A DNA stretch of 64,000 nt from NCBI RefSeq assembly GCF_010119205.1, contig NZ_WRXM01000002.1:798982-862981 (forward strand), in the 5' to 3' direction. The translations under genes were made by a program, and so were the position numbers. Of the stretch, positions 17,816-40,400 are shown piece after piece. The DNA comes from Haloarcula limicola. Lineage in GTDB: Archaea; Halobacteriota; Halobacteria; Halobacteriales; Haloarculaceae. Numbering within the stretch: position 1 is the first letter of the stretch; every line of letters begins with the position of its first letter. The notes below the pieces were generated by a model. That model saw nothing but the letters and a program-made list of their open reading frames with translations, did no database searches and was not told the DNA's origin.

Positions 17816-19093
17816 ATGACAGCCCCCATTTCTGAGCGACTCGACGACGTAGAGTCGGCCCGCGAGTCGGGCCGGCGGAAGATGGACTGGGCGGCACAGC
17901 ACATGCCCATCTGCGCGTCGCTGCGCGAGGAGTTCGAGACCGACCGACCGTTCGCCGGCGAGCGGATCGGCATGGCGATGCACGTCGAAGCGAAGACGGC
18001 GGTGCTCGCCGAACTGCTGGCCCAGGGCGGCGCGGAAGTCGCCATCACCGGGTGTAACCCGCTCTCGACGCACGACGACGTGAGCGCGGCGCTCGACGCC
18101 GTCGACGGCGTCACCTCCTACGCCGAGCGCGGCGTCGACGACGAGGCGTACTACGCCGCCATCGAGGCCGTGCTCGAACACGAACCGACGATCACGGTGG
18201 ACGACGGGATGGACCTGGTGGCCGCGGTCCACGAGGACTACCCCGAACTCATCGACACCATCGTCGGCGGGGCCGAGGAGACCACCACCGGCGTCCACCG
18301 CCTGCGCGCGATGGACGCGGACGGCGAACTCGACTACCCGGTGTTCGCGGTCAACGACACGCCGATGAAACGGCTGTTCGACAACGTCCACGGCACCGGC
18401 GAGTCGTCGCTGGCCTCCATCGCCATGACGACGAATCTCTCGTGGGCCGGCAAGACCGTCGTCGTCGCCGGCTACGGCCACTGCGGGAAGGGCGTCGCGA
18501 AGAAGGCCAGCGGCCAGAACGCCGACGTGGTCGTCACCGAGGTCGAGCCCCGCCGCGCGCTCGAAGCCCACATGGAGGGCTACGACGTCATGCCGATGGC
18601 CGAAGCGGCCGAAGCGGGCGACGTCTTCATCACGACCACCGGAAATCGGGACGTCATCGTCGAAGACCACTTCGAGAACATGCAGGACGGCGTTCTCTTG
18701 GCGAACGCCGGCCACTTCGACGTGGAGATCGACCTCGACGCGCTCGCTTCGATAGCCGCCGACACCTACGAGGCCCGCGACGGCGTGCGGGCCTACGAGA
18801 TGGCCGACGGCCGCCGCCTGAACGTGCTGGCCGAAGGTCGACTCGTCAATCTGGCGACCCCCATCGCGCTGGGCCACCCGGTCGAAGTGATGGACCAGAG
18901 CTTCGGGATTCAGGCGGTCTGCGTGCGGGAACTGGTCGAGAACGGCGACGCCTACGACGCCGGCGTCCACGACGTGCCCGACCGGCTGGACAAGGAGGTC
19001 GCCGAGGTGAAGTTGGCCGCCGAAGGCGTCGATTTCGACGGGCTGACGGACGAACAGGCCGAGTATATGGATTCGTGGCAGCACGGGACGTAG
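17816..19093 (+). CDS. ahcY: Adenosylhomocysteinase
   Basis: Hydrolyses S-adenosylhomocysteine to adenosine and homocysteine, keeping methylation going. 425 residues; substrate domain with DWAAQHMPICASLREEF and NPLSTHDDVSAAL, catalytic VNDTPMKRLFDN, then the NAD-binding Rossmann domain with VVAGYGHCGKGVA and ITTTGNRDVI, and the NAGHFDVEID and C-terminal dimerisation parts. As in other archaeal enzymes the tail is shorter than in eukaryotes. Its TAG stop is the first base of a repeat-rich intergenic tract. Confidence 0.96.
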   Translation: MTAPISERLDDVESARESGRRKMDWAAQHMPICASLREEFETDRPFAGERIGMAMHVEAKTAVLAELLAQGGAEVAITGCNPLSTHDDVSAALDAVDGVTSYAERGVDDEAYYAAIEAVLEHEPTITVDDGMDLVAAVHEDYPELIDTIVGGAEETTTGVHRLRAMDADGELDYPVFAVNDTPMKRLFDNVHGTGESSLASIAMTTNLSWAGKTVVVAGYGHCGKGVAKKASGQNADVVVTEVEPRRALEAHMEGYDVMPMAEAAEAGDVFITTTGNRDVIVEDHFENMQDGVLLANAGHFDVEIDLDALASIAADTYEARDGVRAYEMADGRRLNVLAEGRLVNLATPIALGHPVEVMDQSFGIQAVCVRELVENGDAYDAGVHDVPDRLDKEVAEVKLAAEGVDFDGLTDEQAEYMDSWQHGT

Positions 19094-19443
19094 CGAGGCC
19101 GACCGTAGGGAGGCCTCGATACCCGAGCGGGGAGAGCGAGGCGCGAAGCGCCTCGGATGTGAGCGGCGCTAGCCGCGAACGAAGCGACCCGCGAGGGACG
19201 TAGGGAGATTCGGAGCGAGCAACGCGAGCGAGAATCTCCGAAAGCGACGCGGCGACCAGCGGGAGCCGCGGAGCAGTAGAGCGGTCTGAACGGAGTGAAG
19301 ACCGCCAGTTGCGAGTGGGGAGAGCGAGGAGCGAAGAACCTCGAATTGCGAGCGGCGCGAACTAAGCGAGTGAGAGCCGTCAAACTACGAGAACCCTCGG
19401 AATCACCCCATACGTCAAGGGAGATAGAGGACAGTCCACGAGC
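19094..19443 (+). repeat. Repeat-rich intergenic tract with hairpin elements (copy A)
   Basis: The gap of 450 bases between ahcY and the lipoprotein gene holds no gene. It is a string of purine-rich GC elements forming hairpins: CGAGGCC/GGCCTCG (19094-19118), GAGGCGC-GAA-GCGCCTC (19138-19154), GGAGATTC/GAATCTCC (19204-19239, 20-base loop), GCGGTCT/AGACCGC (19281-19305, 11-base loop) and CGAGG/CCTCG (19325-19343). Parts recur at 39982-40300 and, inverted, at 25285-25467. The first hairpin directly after the stop may also terminate ahcY. A T-run (19445-19454) follows the tract. Confidence 0.8.
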
Positions 19444-24651: not shown

Positions 24652-25284
24652 ATGACACTCATTAAGCCAGCTTCAGATTCGGAGCCGACTGCACTCGCAC
24701 CGGACCCCAGCACGCTCTCCTCACGCGCCGTCCGCGCCTGGACCGAGCGGATGGCCGTCCGGAAGCAGCGAGACGAGACGTACGCGGTCACGACCGAGAG
24801 CGGCCACACGTACGTCGTCGACCTGCGCGAGCACTCCTGTACCTGTCCCGACTACGAGATCCGCGGCGAGCGGTGCAAACACCTCCGCCGGGTCGCCATC
24901 GAGATTACCGCCCGCCGAATCGCCCCGCCGGGCCGCCAGCGCGCCCGCTGTGACGTCTGCGAGGCGGTGACGTTCGTCCCTCAGGCGGCCGACCCGCCGC
25001 ATCTCTGTGGCGACTGCCGCGTCGCGCCGGGCGACATCGTCGTCGACCGCGAGACCGGCGACAGCCTCGTCGTCGCCGAAGTGCTGACCGAGAGAGCGGA
25101 CGAGCACGTCATCGAAGCCACCGGGAAGACCGTCGCCGAGCACGACACCAACGACGGCTATCCCGGAGACGACGTCGTGGTCGAAGTGACGTATCTCGGC
25201 GACGCCACACGGAACGAGAACCCGCGCCGCTACGCGTTCCCGTACTCGCGGTTGAACCGCACGGACGCGGAACTGGTCGGGTAG
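24652..25284 (+). CDS. SWIM zinc-finger protein
   Basis: 210 residues. A SWIM motif CxCx(n)CxH is clear at CTCPDYEIRGERCKHLRRV (about residues 64-82), followed by a second zinc-ribbon-like set (CDVCEAV and CGDC, about 101-122) and a beta-rich acidic C-terminal domain. SWIM domains bind DNA or protein; archaeal cases are linked to recombination (Sws1/RecA-paralogue partners) or are uncharacterised. Convergent with the Hjc resolvase gene. ATG 24652 chosen because the upstream frame is promoter and antisense sequence. The gene ends GGG-TAG-GCGAGGG, joining the repeat tract. Confidence 0.82.
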   Translation: MTLIKPASDSEPTALAPDPSTLSSRAVRAWTERMAVRKQRDETYAVTTESGHTYVVDLREHSCTCPDYEIRGERCKHLRRVAIEITARRIAPPGRQRARCDVCEAVTFVPQAADPPHLCGDCRVAPGDIVVDRETGDSLVVAEVLTERADEHVIEATGKTVAEHDTNDGYPGDDVVVEVTYLGDATRNENPRRYAFPYSRLNRTDAELVG

Positions 25285-25467
25285 GCGAGGGACTTCGCGC
25301 CGCTCAGACACTCGTTGCCGCTCGCGGCTTCGCCGTCGTCGGGCGGCAACGCCGCCCGGCCGCCTGAGGGACCTCCGGTCGTCGCCGTTCGCTCTCCACG
25401 GCTCCCTGCGGTCGCCGTTTCGGTACGAGGGCCGACTCCCTCACTATCGTTCGATCGTCGCCCCTCG
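25285..25467 (-). repeat. Repeat-rich convergent spacer (copy B, mostly inverted)
   Basis: The 183 bases between the SWIM and Hjc genes resemble the tracts at 19.1 and 40.0 kb. Read on the minus strand they contain GGCGACCGCAGGGAGCCG then TGGAGAGCG, closely like GGTGACCGCAGGGAACCG then CGGAGCAG at 40175-40200, and begin TAGCGAGGGGCG at the hjc stop. The plus-strand end also starts with TAG-GCGAGGG at the SWIM stop. No gene seen. Confidence 0.7.
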
Positions 25468-25986
25468 CTACTCCAACATCTGGGCCGCTTCGTCTTTCTC
25501 CAGATCGCCGCGCTCGAACGCCGAGAGGACGTCCAGCACCGCCTGGTCGGGCCCGTCGTCGGCCACCTCATCCAGTGTAACCTTCCGCGTGTCGCCGACG
25601 AACTCCGCGAAGTCCGTTCCCTCGGCGATGGCCGTCTCCTTCTTGACGCGGTAGTTGCCGCCGTCGGTCGTGTAGAGGTCGCCCGGGTGAAAGAAGTACC
25701 AGTCCTCGCGGTCGAAGCGGACGCCGACGCGGGGCTTCGCGCCGAAGTTCCGCGCGAAGAACAGCAGCGCCTCGATCTCCTCGCCGGTCAGATAGATCGG
25801 GTCGCCGGCGCTGGATTTCGCCTCGATCGCGTAGAACGTCTCGCCGTCGCCGGTCAGCACGTCGGGCAGTTCGCGTTCGGTCGCGCTCCCGCTGGCCGGC
25901 GCTCGCATCACCGCGAATCCCGCCTCGTCCAAGGCGTTGACCAGCTCCCGCTCGCGGCGGTCCCCCTTCGCGTTCGAATTTGCCAT
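25468..25986 (-). CDS. hjc: Holliday junction resolvase Hjc
   Basis: 172 residues. Archaeal resolvase of the PD-(D/E)XK fold: basic N terminus GDRRERELV with the conserved Glu 12, the catalytic P41-D42, and E55-A-K57 (YAIEAKSS). It cuts four-way junctions made during recombination and fork repair. Family length is about 130; the extra C-terminal segment of about 40 residues is acidic ([11 protein letters not shown]...KDEAAQMLE), a haloarchaeal feature. Start ATG 25986 gives the standard N terminus. The TAG stop begins a repeat tract. Confidence 0.93.
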
Positions 25987-26084
25987 TAGCGTCCGTTTAT
26001 CGGTCGCGGGTAAAAATGGCTCGCGGCTGGCGGAAGTGATCGTTCGAGAGAGGTGTTACTCGTAGGTCACACTACGTCCCCTCG

Positions 26085-26696
26085 CTACTCCTTCGCTCTC
26101 TCCTCTAACTCCCGGATGACTTCCTCGGTCTCGCCGCCGTCGCTTCGCACCGCCTCCGCGTAGCGGCGGTACTCCCGCGGTGAGACCTGCACCGTCTTGG
26201 ACTCGCCCTTGTGGGTGAGTTCCAGTCGGACCATCCCCTGCGGGTTGTTCCGGGTGCGGAAACTCGCCATCGCGGTGAAGACGAACCAGAAGGACAGCGA
26301 CGCGCCGACGAAGTACGCCATCGCCGTCTCGAAGGCCAGCGTCTCCGCGCCGGTCGTCCAGCGGCCGGGATAGGCGTACTGAAAGATGCCGATGCCGACC
26401 AGACAGCAGAGGGTGCCGACGCCGACGCCGATCTGCTCGCGGCGACTCGACGGGAGGACGGCGACGACGGCGAGGAACATCGCCGGGATCCCCAGGCCCC
26501 CGAGCGTCCCGGCGAGTTTCTCGGCGGTCCGGATGTCGGTGGCTCCGACCCAGTCCGACAGCGGCGTCGTCACCAGCAAGACGCCGACGACGACGGCGGT
26601 CGCTCCGAGGAGTCCGAGGGCGACCCCGGCGAAGACGCGGCGCGGGTCCCGCCCCTCGAAGCGGGGAGTGCCGTAGGCGTCGCCGAGGTTCTCCAT
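26085..26696 (-). CDS. Conserved haloarchaeal four-helix membrane protein
   Basis: 203 residues: four hydrophobic segments (about 20-42, 60-82, 88-108, 122-145) and a cytoplasmic C-terminal domain (VRLELTHKGESKTVQVSPREYRRYAEAV...) ending in a charged helix. I think this is a haloarchaeal DUF (DUF7139 from memory). ATG 26696 (MENLGDAYGTPRFEG) is preferred to the start 27 bases upstream. Function unknown. Its TAG stop is followed by CGAGGGGAC, as in the repeat-linked genes. Confidence 0.75.
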   Translation of the reverse strand: MENLGDAYGTPRFEGRDPRRVFAGVALGLLGATAVVVGVLLVTTPLSDWVGATDIRTAEKLAGTLGGLGIPAMFLAVVAVLPSSRREQIGVGVGTLCCLVGIGIFQYAYPGRWTTGAETLAFETAMAYFVGASLSFWFVFTAMASFRTRNNPQGMVRLELTHKGESKTVQVSPREYRRYAEAVRSDGGETEEVIRELEERAKE

Positions 26697-34341: not shown

Positions 34342-36387
34342 ATGGTGGACGGCGACGAGGACGAGGAGCGCTCCGACCCCGATGAGCCGCGCGACCCGCC
34401 GACGCTGGACGACAACGAAGCCGAAGTCAATCCGCAGGACGACGAGGAGGCGTCCGACGACGAACTCGCGGTCGAGGACGAATCGACGGCCGAGGAGTGG
34501 TTCGGTTCCGAGACCGACGAGGACGGACCGTCCGCGTCGTCCGATAGCGGCGATGACCGGGGCGAGTCCCCTTCGGCGGCGAACGAGGAGGGAACGGGGG
34601 GCTCGGACGGCGAGTTCGACGACGCCGCCGTCGACGACTCGGCGGCGTCGGGGCTCGGTCCCCGCGCCCCCGAGGACGACGAGGCGCTCTCTCCGCCCGA
34701 GGAAGACGACAACGAAGCCGAGGTCAACCCGCCGACGCGCGAGGGCGACGGGGACCGAGACGCGGAGCCCGAAGCGGACCTGCCGGGAACTGACGCGATG
34801 GAGTCCGGCGGGCTCGACTCCGAGCGCGTCGAGCGCGACGACGACCTCGAACCCATAAGCGACGACCTCGACCCGATCGGCGACGCGCCCGCCGGTGGCG
34901 ACGAGGCGACCACCGGGGCACACGCCCTGCCGGGCCCGACGCGGCCCGGCCTGTTCGACCGCGACCCCGCCGACGTGGACGCCGCCGTCCCGGCCGACGT
35001 CCCCGTCGACCGGGGGATCCCGCCGACGCCGAGTCACGGCTCGGAAGCCGGCGGCGCACCGGCGACCGGCCCCGGCGACCCCGGAGACGGCACCGGCGGC
35101 GAAGCCGGGTTCGGCGGCGCGCCCGACGACCAGGAGATGCCGCTGGCCGACCACGTCGAGGAGATGGCGATGCGGCTGTTCGTCGTCGTCGGCGTGATGT
35201 CCGTCGTCGCCGTCCTCACGCTCCCCGTCTCGGACGAACTCATCAACTTCCTCTGGTACTCCTTCCTCGACGGTCCCGCCGAGGCCTGCGGGCAGGTCGC
35301 CGTCGAGGCCCAGCAGGGCGGCGCGGCCGCCGGGCCGTCCGGCGTGGACTGCCCGCACGTCTACAGCCCGCTGGCGCTGATATTCGCGCGACTGAAAGTC
35401 GCGTCGCTAGTGGGCATGATCGTCGCTCTGCCGGTCTTCGTCTACGAGACGTACCTGTTCATGCGCCCCGGGCTGTACCCCCGCGAGCGCCGCTACTACC
35501 TCGCCGCGGTCCCGACCAGCCTCGTGCTCGCGGCCATCGGCGTCAGCTTCGCGTACTTCGCCGTCCTGCGGGCGATGTTCGATTACTTCAGCGTCTACTC
35601 CGACCGAGCCGCCGACCTGGCGTTCGGGCTGGGCGATACGTTCAGCCTCATGGTCCTGATGCTCGGCTTCTTCGCGCTGGTCTTCCAGATCCCGCTGTTC
35701 GTGATGCTCGCCATCATGATGGGCGTGACGACCCGCCGGTGGCTCGTCGAGCGCCGCCTCTACTTCTGGGGCGGGTTCGCCGCCGTCGCGTTCGTCTTCA
35801 GCCCCGACCCGACCGGGATGGCCCCGCTGATGGTCGCGGTGACGATGATCGGCCTCTTCGAGGGGACGCTCCTGCTGTTGAAGTGGACCGGGAGCAGTTC
35901 GCCGATCCCGAGCATCGACGACCTCACCGACCGCCGGCCGACCATCTACGCGCTGTTCGCGCTGGTCGGCTACGTCGTGAGCCCCCTGCCGGTGCCCACC
36001 GGCTACTACGAGGAGCTGCCCGCGACCGTCACGGACACGCTGGCGACGGTGGGACTCGCCCCGCCGATACTCGTCGGCGGCGGCCTCATCGTCCTCTTCG
36101 AGCTGACGGCGTACCTCAACAAGAACTACTACGGCAGCGTCCGCCTCTGGCGGGGCCTCCGCCGGGCCCGCCTGCCGCTCTGGGCGGTCGCCATCGTCGT
36201 CGGCTACCTCTCTAGCCCCGACCCCGCGCTGTTCCGCCTGGTCCAGCAGTTCAGCGTCGAACCGACCGTCGCGGCCGCCGTCGCCGTCGGCCTCGTCGTC
36301 CTCTTCGAGGGGACGCTCGCGCTCGCCCGCTGGCGGAGCGGCGACCCCGAGGACGACCGCGATGCGGAGTTCGAGGCCGAGACATGA
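34342..36387 (+). CDS. tatC1: TatC translocase with long acidic N-terminal extension (TatCo)
   Basis: 681 residues. The TatC domain begins near residue 264 (EMPLADHVEEMAMRLF) with the family patterns YLFMRPGLYPRERR and FSPDPTGMAPLM; several extra hydrophobic segments follow to the C terminus. The first 260 residues are disordered and acidic and contain the motif DDNEAEVNP twice (23-31 and 122-130). I chose ATG 34342 because TTTACAAC at 34308-34315 is about 27 bases upstream; ATG 34330 is an alternative. Divergent from tatCt; overlaps the phosphatase gene by 4 bases. Confidence 0.88.
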   Translation: MVDGDEDEERSDPDEPRDPPTLDDNEAEVNPQDDEEASDDELAVEDESTAEEWFGSETDEDGPSASSDSGDDRGESPSAANEEGTGGSDGEFDDAAVDDSAASGLGPRAPEDDEALSPPEEDDNEAEVNPPTREGDGDRDAEPEADLPGTDAMESGGLDSERVERDDDLEPISDDLDPIGDAPAGGDEATTGAHALPGPTRPGLFDRDPADVDAAVPADVPVDRGIPPTPSHGSEAGGAPATGPGDPGDGTGGEAGFGGAPDDQEMPLADHVEEMAMRLFVVVGVMSVVAVLTLPVSDELINFLWYSFLDGPAEACGQVAVEAQQGGAAAGPSGVDCPHVYSPLALIFARLKVASLVGMIVALPVFVYETYLFMRPGLYPRERRYYLAAVPTSLVLAAIGVSFAYFAVLRAMFDYFSVYSDRAADLAFGLGDTFSLMVLMLGFFALVFQIPLFVMLAIMMGVTTRRWLVERRLYFWGGFAAVAFVFSPDPTGMAPLMVAVTMIGLFEGTLLLLKWTGSSSPIPSIDDLTDRRPTIYALFALVGYVVSPLPVPTGYYEELPATVTDTLATVGLAPPILVGGGLIVLFELTAYLNKNYYGSVRLWRGLRRARLPLWAVAIVVGYLSSPDPALFRLVQQFSVEPTVAAAVAVGLVVLFEGTLALARWRSGDPEDDRDAEFEAET

Positions 36388-37001
36388 GCACGGTGCTGGT
36401 CGTCCGTCACGGCGAGACCGCCTGGAACCGCGAGGGCCGCGTGCAGGGCTGGGCACCGACCGAACTGACCGAACGGGGCCGCGAGCAGGCGAGGAGAGTC
36501 GGCTCGTGGCTCGACGAGAACTACGACGTGGACCGCGTCCGCTCGTCGGACCTCCGGCGGACCCGCGAGACGGCCGAGAGAGCCGTCGACGCCGCCGAGG
36601 GCCTCCCCGACCCGACGCTCGACGAATCGTGGCGCGAGCGCGGCTTCGGCGTCTATCAGGGCTTTCTCGCCGAGGACCTCTTCGACCGCCACCCCGACCA
36701 CGAACCGGAGGCGAGCGTCTCGATTCTCGACACCGACCCCGAGGGCGGCGAGAGCGTCGCCGACTTCTGCGGCCGCGTCGAATCGGCGTGGACCGACTTC
36801 CGCCAGACGATCGACGAGGACGAGACGGTGCTGCTGGTCACCCACGGTGGCGTGATCAAGGTCCTGCTCTCGACTGTGGCCGACCGCGGCCGCGAACGGA
36901 CGCTCTCGGGACACTCGCCGCCGAACTGTTCGGTGACGGAGATACGTCTCGACGGCGAGCGCTCGGAGGTCGTCAGAGAAGGGGAACGGCCCGAGAACTG
37001 A
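36384..37001 (+). CDS. Histidine phosphatase superfamily protein
   Basis: 205 residues of the phosphoglycerate mutase-like clan: catalytic His in VVRHGETAWNREGRVQGW (residues about 8-10), Arg in RVRSSDLRRTRETAE, acid in SWRERGFG, and second His in LLVTHGGVIKVLL. Such proteins remove phosphates from sugars, cobalamin intermediates or proteins; no specific role is evident. Starts inside the TatC stop (ATGA), so it is translated with tatC1, an odd pairing of secretion and a phosphatase. Confidence 0.9.
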   Translation: MSTVLVVRHGETAWNREGRVQGWAPTELTERGREQARRVGSWLDENYDVDRVRSSDLRRTRETAERAVDAAEGLPDPTLDESWRERGFGVYQGFLAEDLFDRHPDHEPEASVSILDTDPEGGESVADFCGRVESAWTDFRQTIDEDETVLLVTHGGVIKVLLSTVADRGRERTLSGHSPPNCSVTEIRLDGERSEVVREGERPEN

Positions 37002-37983: not shown

Positions 37984-39981
37984 ATGAGTCGGCAGATGGA
38001 ACTGGAATCGGTGCCCGGCGTCGGGGCGAAGACGGCCGCCGCCCTGCGCGAGTTAGACGACCCCGAACGGGCGCTCAGCGAGGGCGACGTGACGACGCTC
38101 GCGCGGGCTCCGGGCATCAGCGAGGGCCGGGCCGCCCGCATCGCCCGCGGCGCGATTCGGGCCGAGCACGGCGACCCCGGCGGGTTCGCCGCGACGCCGC
38201 GCGCCCGCGAGATCTTCGGCGAGGCGCTCGGTCTCCTCCAGGAGCGAACGGTCACCGACTACGCCGCGAAGCGACTGGAGACGCTGTATCCCAGCGGCGT
38301 GCGAGAGCGAATCGAGGAGGTCCGGTCGTTCACCGAGCGAGCGATGGAGCGAGAGCCGGACCCGGACGTCCGGGCGGCGCTGGCCGGCGTCGAACCGCTC
38401 TCGGAACCGGGAGACGTCCGAGTGCGGGACCGCTGTCTCGCCACGAGCGACGCCGAGCGGTATGCGGAAGCGCAGGAGGCCATCCCGGAGGTCAGCGTGG
38501 AAGTGGTCGACGACGCCCGCCAGCTGGCCGAGCTCGCCCGCTCGTACTCGACGGTCGTGGCGCTGGACGAGGCCTTCGCCGGCGTCGACGTCGAGGGCGA
38601 CGTGCGGGTCGAACCCGACGCGCTTTCCGAACCGGCGTCGGTCGTCCCCGAGCGCGTCCTGACCTTCTTCGCGCGGAACCGCGACCGGGTGCGGGCGGCC
38701 GCCGAGGTCCACCGCGTCGCCGGCCTCGACGCGCCGTGTGATCTGGGAACGCTCGCCGACGCGCTCGAACAGCTCGACGCCGACGGCAGCGTGCGGGGCG
38801 ACGACGAGCTCGACCGCCTCTCGACGGCCGTCGACGACCTCGACGCGGCCGTCTCGACCGCCGAGAGCGTCGCCAACGACCACCTGCGGGACGCCATCGA
38901 GGAGCGCGACGTGACCATCGAGGGGACGGATCTCCTCTCGCTGGTCGAGCGCGGCGCGGGCGTGGACTCGCTGCTCCAGCGCGAACTGGCCGACGAGTAC
39001 GCCGCCGCCGTCGAGAAGGCCCGCGACCACCTCGTCGACGCCCTGCGGCTGCGGGACACGGAGGCGACGGCCCGGCGAGCCTTCCCCGACGAACCCGCCT
39101 ACCCCGTCGAGCGACAGGAGGACGTGGTGAGCCGACTGCGCGAGGAACTGACCGCCGCGCGGGACCGCCGCGCGACCCGACGGAAGCGCGAACTTGCCGA
39201 CGACTTAGCGGAGATGCGCTCGGACGCGGAGTCGCTCGTCACCGCCGCCCTCGAACTGGACGTGGAACTCGCCGTCGCCCGCTTCGCCGCCGACTTCGAG
39301 TGTACGCTCCCCGAGGTGACCGACGAGGGCGGCTTCGAGATCGAGGGCGGGCGCTCGCCGCTACTCGACGTGGCCTTCGAAGAGGTGGAGCCGGTCGACT
39401 ACGGCGTGTCCGGCGTCACCGTCCTCTCGGGGGTCAACAGCGGCGGGAAAACGTCGACGCTCGACCTGGTGGCGCTCGTGACGACGCTCGCGCACATGGG
39501 CCTGCCCGTCCCCGCCGAGTCGGCCCGCATCGGCCGCGTCGCGGAACTGCACTACCACGCGAAGACGCAGGGGACGCTGGACGCCGGCGCGTTCGAGGCC
39601 ACCCTCCGGGAGTTCGGCGGGCTCGTGACCGACGTGGCCGCCGACCGCCCGGTGATGGTGCTCGTCGACGAACTCGAGTCGATCACGGAGCCCGGCGCGG
39701 CGGCGACCATCATCGCCGGCATCCTCGAATCGCTGGCCGAGCGCGAGGTGACGGCCGTCTTCGTCTCCCATCTGGCCGACGATATTCTGGAAGCGTCCGA
39801 CGCCGACCTCGCCATCGACGGCATCCAAGCCGAGGGGCTGGTCGACGGCGAACTGCGGGTGAATCGCTCCCCGGTCAAGGGGAAACTCGCCCGCTCGACG
39901 CCGGAGCTCATCGTCGAGAAACTGGCCGACGACGGCGGCGACGAGGGGTTCTATTCGGGGTTGTTGGGGAAGTTCGAGTAG
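37984..39981 (+). CDS. MutS-like ATPase with N-terminal helix-hairpin-helix
   Basis: 665 residues. N-terminal helix-hairpin-helix DNA-binding pair (LESVPGVGAKTAAALREL, APGISEGRAARIARGA), a long helical lever region (about 270-460), and a C-terminal MutS-type ABC ATPase: Walker A GVNSGGKTST (about 487-496), DELESI Walker B and VFVSHL. It lacks the mismatch-recognition domain I and resembles MutS5/MutS2-type proteins seen in archaea; a role in recombination or DNA-structure processing is likely but unproved. ATG 37984 (or 37996) is favoured since the upstream frame crosses larE. Its TAG stop begins a repeat tract. Confidence 0.85.
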   Translation: MSRQMELESVPGVGAKTAAALRELDDPERALSEGDVTTLARAPGISEGRAARIARGAIRAEHGDPGGFAATPRAREIFGEALGLLQERTVTDYAAKRLETLYPSGVRERIEEVRSFTERAMEREPDPDVRAALAGVEPLSEPGDVRVRDRCLATSDAERYAEAQEAIPEVSVEVVDDARQLAELARSYSTVVALDEAFAGVDVEGDVRVEPDALSEPASVVPERVLTFFARNRDRVRAAAEVHRVAGLDAPCDLGTLADALEQLDADGSVRGDDELDRLSTAVDDLDAAVSTAESVANDHLRDAIEERDVTIEGTDLLSLVERGAGVDSLLQRELADEYAAAVEKARDHLVDALRLRDTEATARRAFPDEPAYPVERQEDVVSRLREELTAARDRRATRRKRELADDLAEMRSDAESLVTAALELDVELAVARFAADFECTLPEVTDEGGFEIEGGRSPLLDVAFEEVEPVDYGVSGVTVLSGVNSGGKTSTLDLVALVTTLAHMGLPVPAESARIGRVAELHYHAKTQGTLDAGAFEATLREFGGLVTDVAADRPVMVLVDELESITEPGAAATIIAGILESLAEREVTAVFVSHLADDILEASDADLAIDGIQAEGLVDGELRVNRSPVKGKLARSTPELIVEKLADDGGDEGFYSGLLGKFE

Positions 39982-40330
39982 CGAGGGGCGCGCGACCAGC
40001 GGGAGCGCGGCCCTCGAAGCGACGCGGTGACCGCAGGGAACCGCGGAGCGGTCGCGAGGGGCCGCCGGAACGAAGCGACGGCGGGCCCTCGGCGGAGCGG
40101 TGAGTGGAACGAACCGCGGAGTAGTAGCGTGGTTCGGAGCGAGCGCTGCGAGCGAGAACCACGAAAGCGACGCGGTGACCGCAGGGAACCGCGGAGCAGC
40201 AGCGAGGGGTTGAGCGAAGCGAAGGTCCTCGAATAGCGAACGAGGAGCGTAGCGACTCGTGAGCAGTAGCGTAGTTCGGAGCGAGCGTCACGACAGCGAG
40301 CCGTCGCACGACAGCGGGACGCGTCCCGAC
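39982..40330 (+). repeat. Repeat-rich intergenic tract with hairpin elements (copy C)
   Basis: The 419 bases before the orc gene hold no gene. The tract starts at the stop codon (TAG-CGAGGGGCG). It contains two near-identical blocks GACGCGGTGACCGCAGGGAA plus CCGCGGAGC (starting 40021 and 40169), a hairpin GTGGTTC/GAACCAC (40129-40162) with a 20-base loop differing at only three central bases from the loop at 19212-19231, and ACGAG/CTCGT (40240-40260, 11-base loop). A 14-base palindrome CGGGACGCGTCCCG lies at 40315-40328. Same family as copy A (19.1 kb) and inverted copy B (25.3 kb). Confidence 0.82.
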
Positions 40331-40400
40331 GCCCGCGTGCGGTTTCACTTCCGCCGTCGGTGGCAAATGGTTAAGTGGTCCGGGAAGCTCGGTGAAAGTG

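Follow-up and report, generated by a model that had tools for sequence, protein, structure and literature searches.

Why do several genes in the window, the whole 64,000-nucleotide stretch of Haloarcula limicola DNA analysed here, end in an amber stop that is followed at once by the same few bases? An earlier note had listed five gene ends with TAG followed by CGAGG (once GCGAGG), and all of these sites were confirmed at the stops of called genes, whose Pfam domains are AdoHcyase (ahcY), MutS domain V, Hjc, DUF7139 (a membrane gene) and SWIM. Two entries of the list need correction: the copy at 26085 is decayed, and the SWIM case, which reads TAG-GCGAGGG at the stop (25282), is by inspection the distal end of the hjc array on the opposite strand. 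The bare 8-mer TAGCGAGG was enriched neither in the window (4 observed versus 2.1 expected) nor genome-wide (141 versus 150 for the reversed control). The position of TAGCGAGG, not its frequency, is the informative feature.

Stop statistics were obtained with a codon-model gene caller on 864 kb of the genome studied here (G000), comprising 814 genes in sampled stretches. For spacers of at least 20 nt, CGAGG lay directly 3' of 16 of 184 TAG stops, compared with 0/318 TGA and 0/80 TAA stops, and the enrichment after TAG formed a peak confined to offset 0. Part of the 864-kb sample was picked once the genome-wide match list was known; in the unselected subset, which consists of a regular 80-kb grid of G000 and contiguous stretches of two other genomes (G026 and G009), the element occupied offset 0 after 15 of 180 TAG stops and after none of 371 TGA or TAA stops (p = 3.4e-8). 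The earlier note had suggested that the position of the element is tied to the stop codon instead of falling anywhere in the spacer, and had proposed comparing TAG with TGA and TAA stops; the offset-0 peak and the unselected counts bear the anchoring out, and since 15/180 stands against 0/371, the equal frequencies that the note named as contrary evidence are not what is found. A first hairpin was present at 13 of 240 stop TAGs, but at only 4 of the 2611 intergenic TAGs that are not stops (p = 1.4e-11). The TAG trinucleotide by itself is insufficient for a hairpin. The base preceding an element-bearing stop TAG was G in 25 of 41 cases and otherwise A or C, and the last codon was GAG or GAA in 22/41 element-bearing TAG genes versus 56/322 TAG genes without the element (p = 1.3e-6), which agrees with the GAGTAG and GAATAG found between units.

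The sequence after the stop is a hairpin of the form CGAGG-N...core...N-CCTCG, in which the core, GA-NN-NNN-NN-GA, places tandem G.A mismatches around a 2-bp stem and a triloop that is often GNA (GAA, GGA, GCA or GTA); an extended version of the core repeats the GA-NN step. Hairpin A, with TAG immediately 5', is 25-42 nt long and has an outer stem of about 5-9 bp that may take nearly any sequence. Thus, CGAGG, present at the sites as the earlier note described, is merely one stem variant, and what is conserved is the hairpin. A complete unit of about 60-75 nt consists of TAG, hairpin A, a short linker, hairpin B with the same core, and AG, with both hairpins on one strand, head to tail, and it repeats in tandem, the next unit often opening with a new TAG. 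A view of the tract as a plain sequence repeat, formed from the window only, was rejected, as it overlooked the variable stems. A permissive finder that allowed bulges gave an excess of chance matches, and a strict hairpin grammar was used instead. With this grammar, 93 strict hairpins were counted in the sampled spacers against 7.3 expected under a third-order Markov model, and TAG stood directly before 26 of the 93.

Pairing is supported by covariation. Among 22 different 29-nt hairpins, 96.3% of the cells were paired, compensatory double changes occurred in 9 of the 11 stem pairs, and the covariation score was 0.652, compared with 0.208 for shuffled rows and 0.03-0.12 with slid partners. 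As these 22 rows were picked by hairpin score, two unselected checks matter, namely the stop TAGCGAGG sites and the orthologs chosen by protein. The CCTCG arm was present at 17 of 21 stop TAGCGAGG sites, and at least two extra pairs within this arm were found at 9/21, as against 1.4% of control CGAGG sites; orthologs picked by protein alone carried many different stems behind the same stop. When wobbles were weighted like Watson-Crick pairs, G.T accounted for only 13 of 512 pairs. Stems that drift under RNA selection would not be expected to show so few G.U pairs, and the scarcity hints at whole-stem replacement or a DNA-level process. Directly after hairpin A there is mostly AA or the short linker to hairpin B, and the T tract directly after the hairpin that marks an intrinsic terminator was absent. 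A search of Rfam with positions 39900-40400 gave no family match up to E = 1.

The placement of the tracts follows the genes. Of 20 tracts with at least two hairpins, 19 sit downstream of a same-strand gene; none lies in the 136 divergent spacers, and tandem spacers hold 14 sense tracts versus 1 antisense tract. Over the first 40 nt past the stop, the predicted folding energy averaged -18.9 kcal/mol with the element versus about -10 kcal/mol without it. In the window, the tract behind the MutS-like gene starts at distance 0 from the gene, and one internal unit of the ahcY array opens with GGGACGTAG, a copy of the end of ahcY itself. The features of the window are collected in Table 1.

Table 1. 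Stop-anchored hairpins and arrays in the window (positions count from its first letter).
Feature	Position	Strand	Remark
TAGCGAGG sites	19091 (+), 25463-25470 (-), 26080-26087 (-), 39979 (+)		all four coincide with stops of called genes
Hairpin array behind ahcY	19091..19385	+	from stop TAG 19091-19093; 3' limit approximate
ahcY unit 1, hairpin A	19094..19118	+	CGAGGCC-GA-CC-GTA-GG-GA-GGCCTCG
SWIM stop TAG and GCGAGG	25282..25290	+	by inspection the distal, palindromic end of the hjc array; no array of its own
hjc hairpin array	25285..25470	-	from stop TAG 25468-25470; fills the convergent spacer to the SWIM stop 25282-25284
hjc array, hairpin A	25426..25467	-	near-identical copy behind the MutS-like gene in G026
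DUF7139 membrane gene, stop TAG 26085-26087 and decayed copy	26042..26087	-	TAGCGAGGGGACG...CTCTCG; extent approximate
Hairpin array behind MutS-like gene	39979..40300	+	from stop TAG 39979-39981; about five two-hairpin units; 3' limit approximate
Hairpins called in MutS-like array	39982-40016, 40019-40049, 40097-40117, 40167-40197, 40236-40264	+	
MutS-like unit 1, hairpin A	39982..40016	+	CGAGGGGCGCG-GA-CC-AGC-GG-GA-GCGCGGCCCTCG as called; core closed by the C before GA
MutS-like unit 1, hairpin B	40019..40049	+	GC-GA-CGCGGT-GA-CC-GCA-GG-GA-ACCGCG-GA-GC

A second palindromic module, GGGACC-N4-GGTCCC-NCAGNCAGTCGGGCGG-NNN-CCGCCCGACGACG, was seen nested in hairpin B stems or in arrays (L002:5745-5835; window 25320-25390, minus strand, as a variant; the carA arrays L273-L291). 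Its 16 exact matches fell within 8 of the 41 genomes, every one of these 8 a Haloarcula, and the reversed control gave 0.

Orthologous sites were compared at several genes. At ahcY, a strict hairpin lies no more than 2 nt after TAG in 12 of the 17 nearest orthologs, chosen by protein, and their stems are of many different kinds; one of the 12 (L064) is a weak match. By eye, L052, L057 and L063 carry variants. In more distant families, ahcY ends in TAA, TGA or TAG and carries no hairpin. At carA, with orthologs likewise picked by protein alone, TAG is followed by a hairpin no more than 1 nt away in about 21 of 30 Haloarcula species, a hand count of the listed outer stems, since the automatic relaxed count was too strict on inner mismatches. 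Several unrelated stem families occur there among species with about 92% protein identity, and the arrays share modules in differing order, the second unit of one species being the first of another. In one carA spacer (L297, from G012), the stop reads TAA-G and is followed by a CGAGG hairpin; this is apparently a TAG unit whose stop has become TAA through an additional A.

Empty and filled sites were found at the methyltransferase gene, the MutS-like gene and hjc. Arrays at the methyltransferase gene are confined to G000 and G026, and relatives have an empty site (L239 and L240 compared with L243 and L258), the empty site of L243 reading TGA-CGAGCGCGGAACAGGCAGTGGGTTTTTC and the filled site of G000 TAG-array-TTAGGCACGGGGTTTTTC. 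At hjc, the element is present in G000 and a few others, and the same codon ends as TAA in G026 and TGA in G009. The gene at 36384-37001 has no element in G000; in G026 it has TAG and the element, and the last four residues differ. A distinctive hairpin variant sits at hjc in G000 and behind the MutS-like gene in G026. The comparison of these sequences shows recent gain and loss of the element at orthologous sites, with protein length generally unchanged. The suggestion of the earlier note that the element may supply the stop therefore finds little support, because the proteins of ahcY, carA, hjc, the MutS-like gene and the methyltransferase gene generally end at the same codon with or without it.

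There is one apparent exception, at L027:17656-17912 (minus strand), where the final codons of a called gene are repeat sequence (ACCCGCGAG-TAG) and an exact tandem copy lies 155 nt away; at this locus, the C-terminus and the stop may indeed come from the repeat. Behind the MutS-like gene in L307 (G009), L309 (G025) and L312 (G024), the hairpin begins 2 nt past TAG (TAG-TG-CGAGG, TAG-GG-CGAGG), so that zero spacing is not absolute. By inspection, the hjc/SWIM convergent spacer of G026 (L130) holds a seemingly decayed array on the SWIM strand, while the G000 array is that of hjc; between close relatives, an array can apparently switch strand.

The ends of genes and the boundaries within arrays resemble each other. 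In ahcY arrays, the internal boundary ACG-TAG, like the gene's own end, occurs in 5 of 12 cases versus 1 of 43 elsewhere, and agreement between gene ends and internal boundaries had a mean of 4.95 across all loci, whereas none of 200 permutations gave more than 4.42, a significant but modest effect.

The distribution of the element was estimated with a covariance model of hairpin A; as 117 candidates were scored per genome, all counts are lower bounds. G000 gave at least 68 matches, and each of the 31 other Haloarcula genomes scored (31/31) had model matches, from at least 4 to at least 101 at E up to 0.1. Three of four sister genera had at least about 20, and most other families of the order gave zero or few weak matches, with two giving 12-15 (again lower bounds). 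Stop-anchored hairpins were recovered in G001 (from stretches picked close to model matches), G026, G009 and G034, with TAG every time. No similar DNA was found in plasmid records. On the evidence of these comparisons, the element is probably a REP/BIME-like family of stop-anchored arrays in Haloarcula and some related genera.

The nearest described relatives in design are bacterial. GTAG REPs (PMC3733652, Di Nocera et al. 2013) are short hairpins, palindromes of 20-40 nt whose 5' foot bears an unpaired (G)TAG; they lie mostly 3' of genes in unidirectional and convergent spacers, and are reported to "often provide" a flanking ORF with its TAG stop. The Haloarcula element shares with them the downstream placement, and its TAG directly 5' of a 25-42 nt hairpin, preceded by G in 25 of 41 cases at stops, resembles their foot in part; it is likewise extragenic and of high copy number (at least 68 matches, 19/20 tracts behind a same-strand gene), and the TAG of the repeat is the stop of the flanking gene. 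The anchoring as such therefore has a bacterial precedent, and the statement of the earlier note that no haloarchaeal element with this property is described holds as far as the literature searches reached. A search of the open-access literature, which is weak evidence of absence, found no described haloarchaeal element of this kind, and as far as our literature searches reached, GTAG-REP-like stop-anchored arrays are so far undescribed in archaea. Unlike GTAG REPs, the element has an archaeal host, shows many stem families that share the tandem-GA/triloop core in place of a single consensus, leaves the base before TAG unfixed and has no RAYT partner found in G000.

BIMEs were seen to contain a copied rayt gene end together with the stretch past the stop of that gene (PMC2817692, Nunvar et al. 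2010), and both systems are hairpin arrays with copied gene ends, of rayt there and of ahcY here. However, BIME REPs alternate in orientation, whereas hairpins A and B keep one orientation, head to tail, and REP/RAYT systems have a RAYT (Y1 HUH) transposase, whereas G000 has no PF01797 match. Because both the transposase partner and the inverted arrangement were looked for and neither was found, we do not class the element as a member of the REP/RAYT systems. In Haloferax volcanii, hairpins were reported near transcript 3' ends, and one tested hairpin, located in a coding region, gave 59% termination (PMC7237163, Berkemer et al. 2020). The likeness lies in hairpins near 3' ends in a haloarchaeon; stop-codon anchoring, tandem arrays and a repeat family are not reported in the part of that paper considered here.

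We consider it probable, at roughly 0.6, that the element is an archaeal analogue of the bacterial GTAG-REP/BIME arrays, which would grow in place and exchange units in register at TAG. The first TAG of the array is the amber stop of the gene. Arrays would grow via tandem duplications in which the stop region is included, and units would be lost or swapped by recombination in register at TAG. If duplication and exchange respect the TAG boundary, the gene end would always retain TAG. Such TAG-bounded exchange would explain why the anchoring is exact, why TAG is the only stop involved, why gene ends are copied and why modules are reordered. Hairpins would also spread from gene to gene. A likely role for the array would be that of a structured 3' UTR, which would fold immediately in the wake of the terminating ribosome and shield or insulate the mRNA. 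Such a 3'-end function in RNA, predicted from sense orientation, position and folding energy, is plausible.

As for a mobilizing enzyme, the search of G000 for a Y1 (RAYT-type) transposase gave no PF01797 match, no TAG-hairpin was found at eight IS200-type (Y1) loci (L041-L048), and element numbers across the genus do not track the presence of Y1 genes. These negative results, the non-inverted arrangement of hairpins A and B, the scarcity of G.U pairs and the modest size of the gene-end excess count against the array reading. A bolder and distinctly doubtful proposal is that the amber stop is the first triplet of a modular hairpin unit whose arrays are built, exchanged and kept without RAYT as a programmable mRNA 3' end. 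One such RAYT-free route might be template switching, another recombination on single strands that form hairpins, with a coupling to the gene end.

Other explanations have to be weighed against the array reading. That GC-rich purine spacers simply read CGAGG after TAG by composition agrees with the lack of genome-wide enrichment of the bare 8-mer; the offset-0 peak, its absence after TGA and TAA, the compensatory stems, the sense bias and the recurrence in other Haloarcula genomes speak against chance, which the unselected counts (15/180 for TAG, 0/371 for the others) refute, leaving it a negligible probability. Viral readthrough contexts resemble UAG-C with a 3' hairpin, which counts for a readthrough signal that extends the protein. 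Such a signal is nevertheless highly improbable, and it was rejected as a candidate: no open conserved frame follows the stop and no frame is preferred, as stops within 70 nt downstream number 14, 14 and 15 by frame, and internal TAG-hairpins 5, 6 and 5, and the tract sequences are wholly different between species.

A selfish insertion element that targets TAG, with 5' target retention like that of IS200/IS605 and survivors only behind stops, would fit the observations that element-less orthologs often end in TAG already (most hjc, MutS-like and methyltransferase genes) and that copies vary between close species. Its target choice does not fit, since harmless spacer TAGs are abundant and only 4/2611 of them carry a hairpin compared with 13/240 stop TAGs, and neither the lack of a Y1 transposase match in G000 nor the 14 sense tracts versus 1 antisense tract in tandem spacers is as such an element would have it; we therefore regard it as unlikely. 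A purely functional RNA element, whether terminator, exonuclease block or insulator, which is selected gene by gene and spread by ordinary recombination, is conceivable but still on the improbable side. The sense orientation directly after the stop, the long persistence at ahcY and carA while stems change, the folding energy (-18.9 versus about -10 kcal/mol) and the termination of 59% of transcripts by a T-tract-less hairpin motif in Haloferax volcanii (PMC7237163) argue for it. On the other hand, just about 8% of TAG stops carry the element, hjc of the nearest relatives lacks it, G.U pairs are nearly absent, multi-unit arrays are more than a terminator requires, and no U tract lies directly 3' of the hairpins.

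On the array reading, the purine-rich GAGCGAAGCGAG spacer sequence would be, at least in part, an ordered hairpin family with a grammar of its own, and palindromes collecting behind stops would have a second, apparently independent case, in another domain and without the usual transposase. The share of TAG in Haloarcula stop-codon usage would be partly shaped by a repeat, and both the spread of the element and its 3'-end role become testable. If the bolder proposal of an amber-stop unit, RAYT-free arrays and a programmable 3' end were true, it would amount to an archaeal REP-like system of separate origin.

Finally, GA-core-like hairpins with a TTTCA flank and a T tract were observed at L011:18752-18780, L033:10522-10550, L034:15864-15890 and L039:18451-18495. 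These look like classical intrinsic terminators and form a class apart from the stop-anchored arrays.
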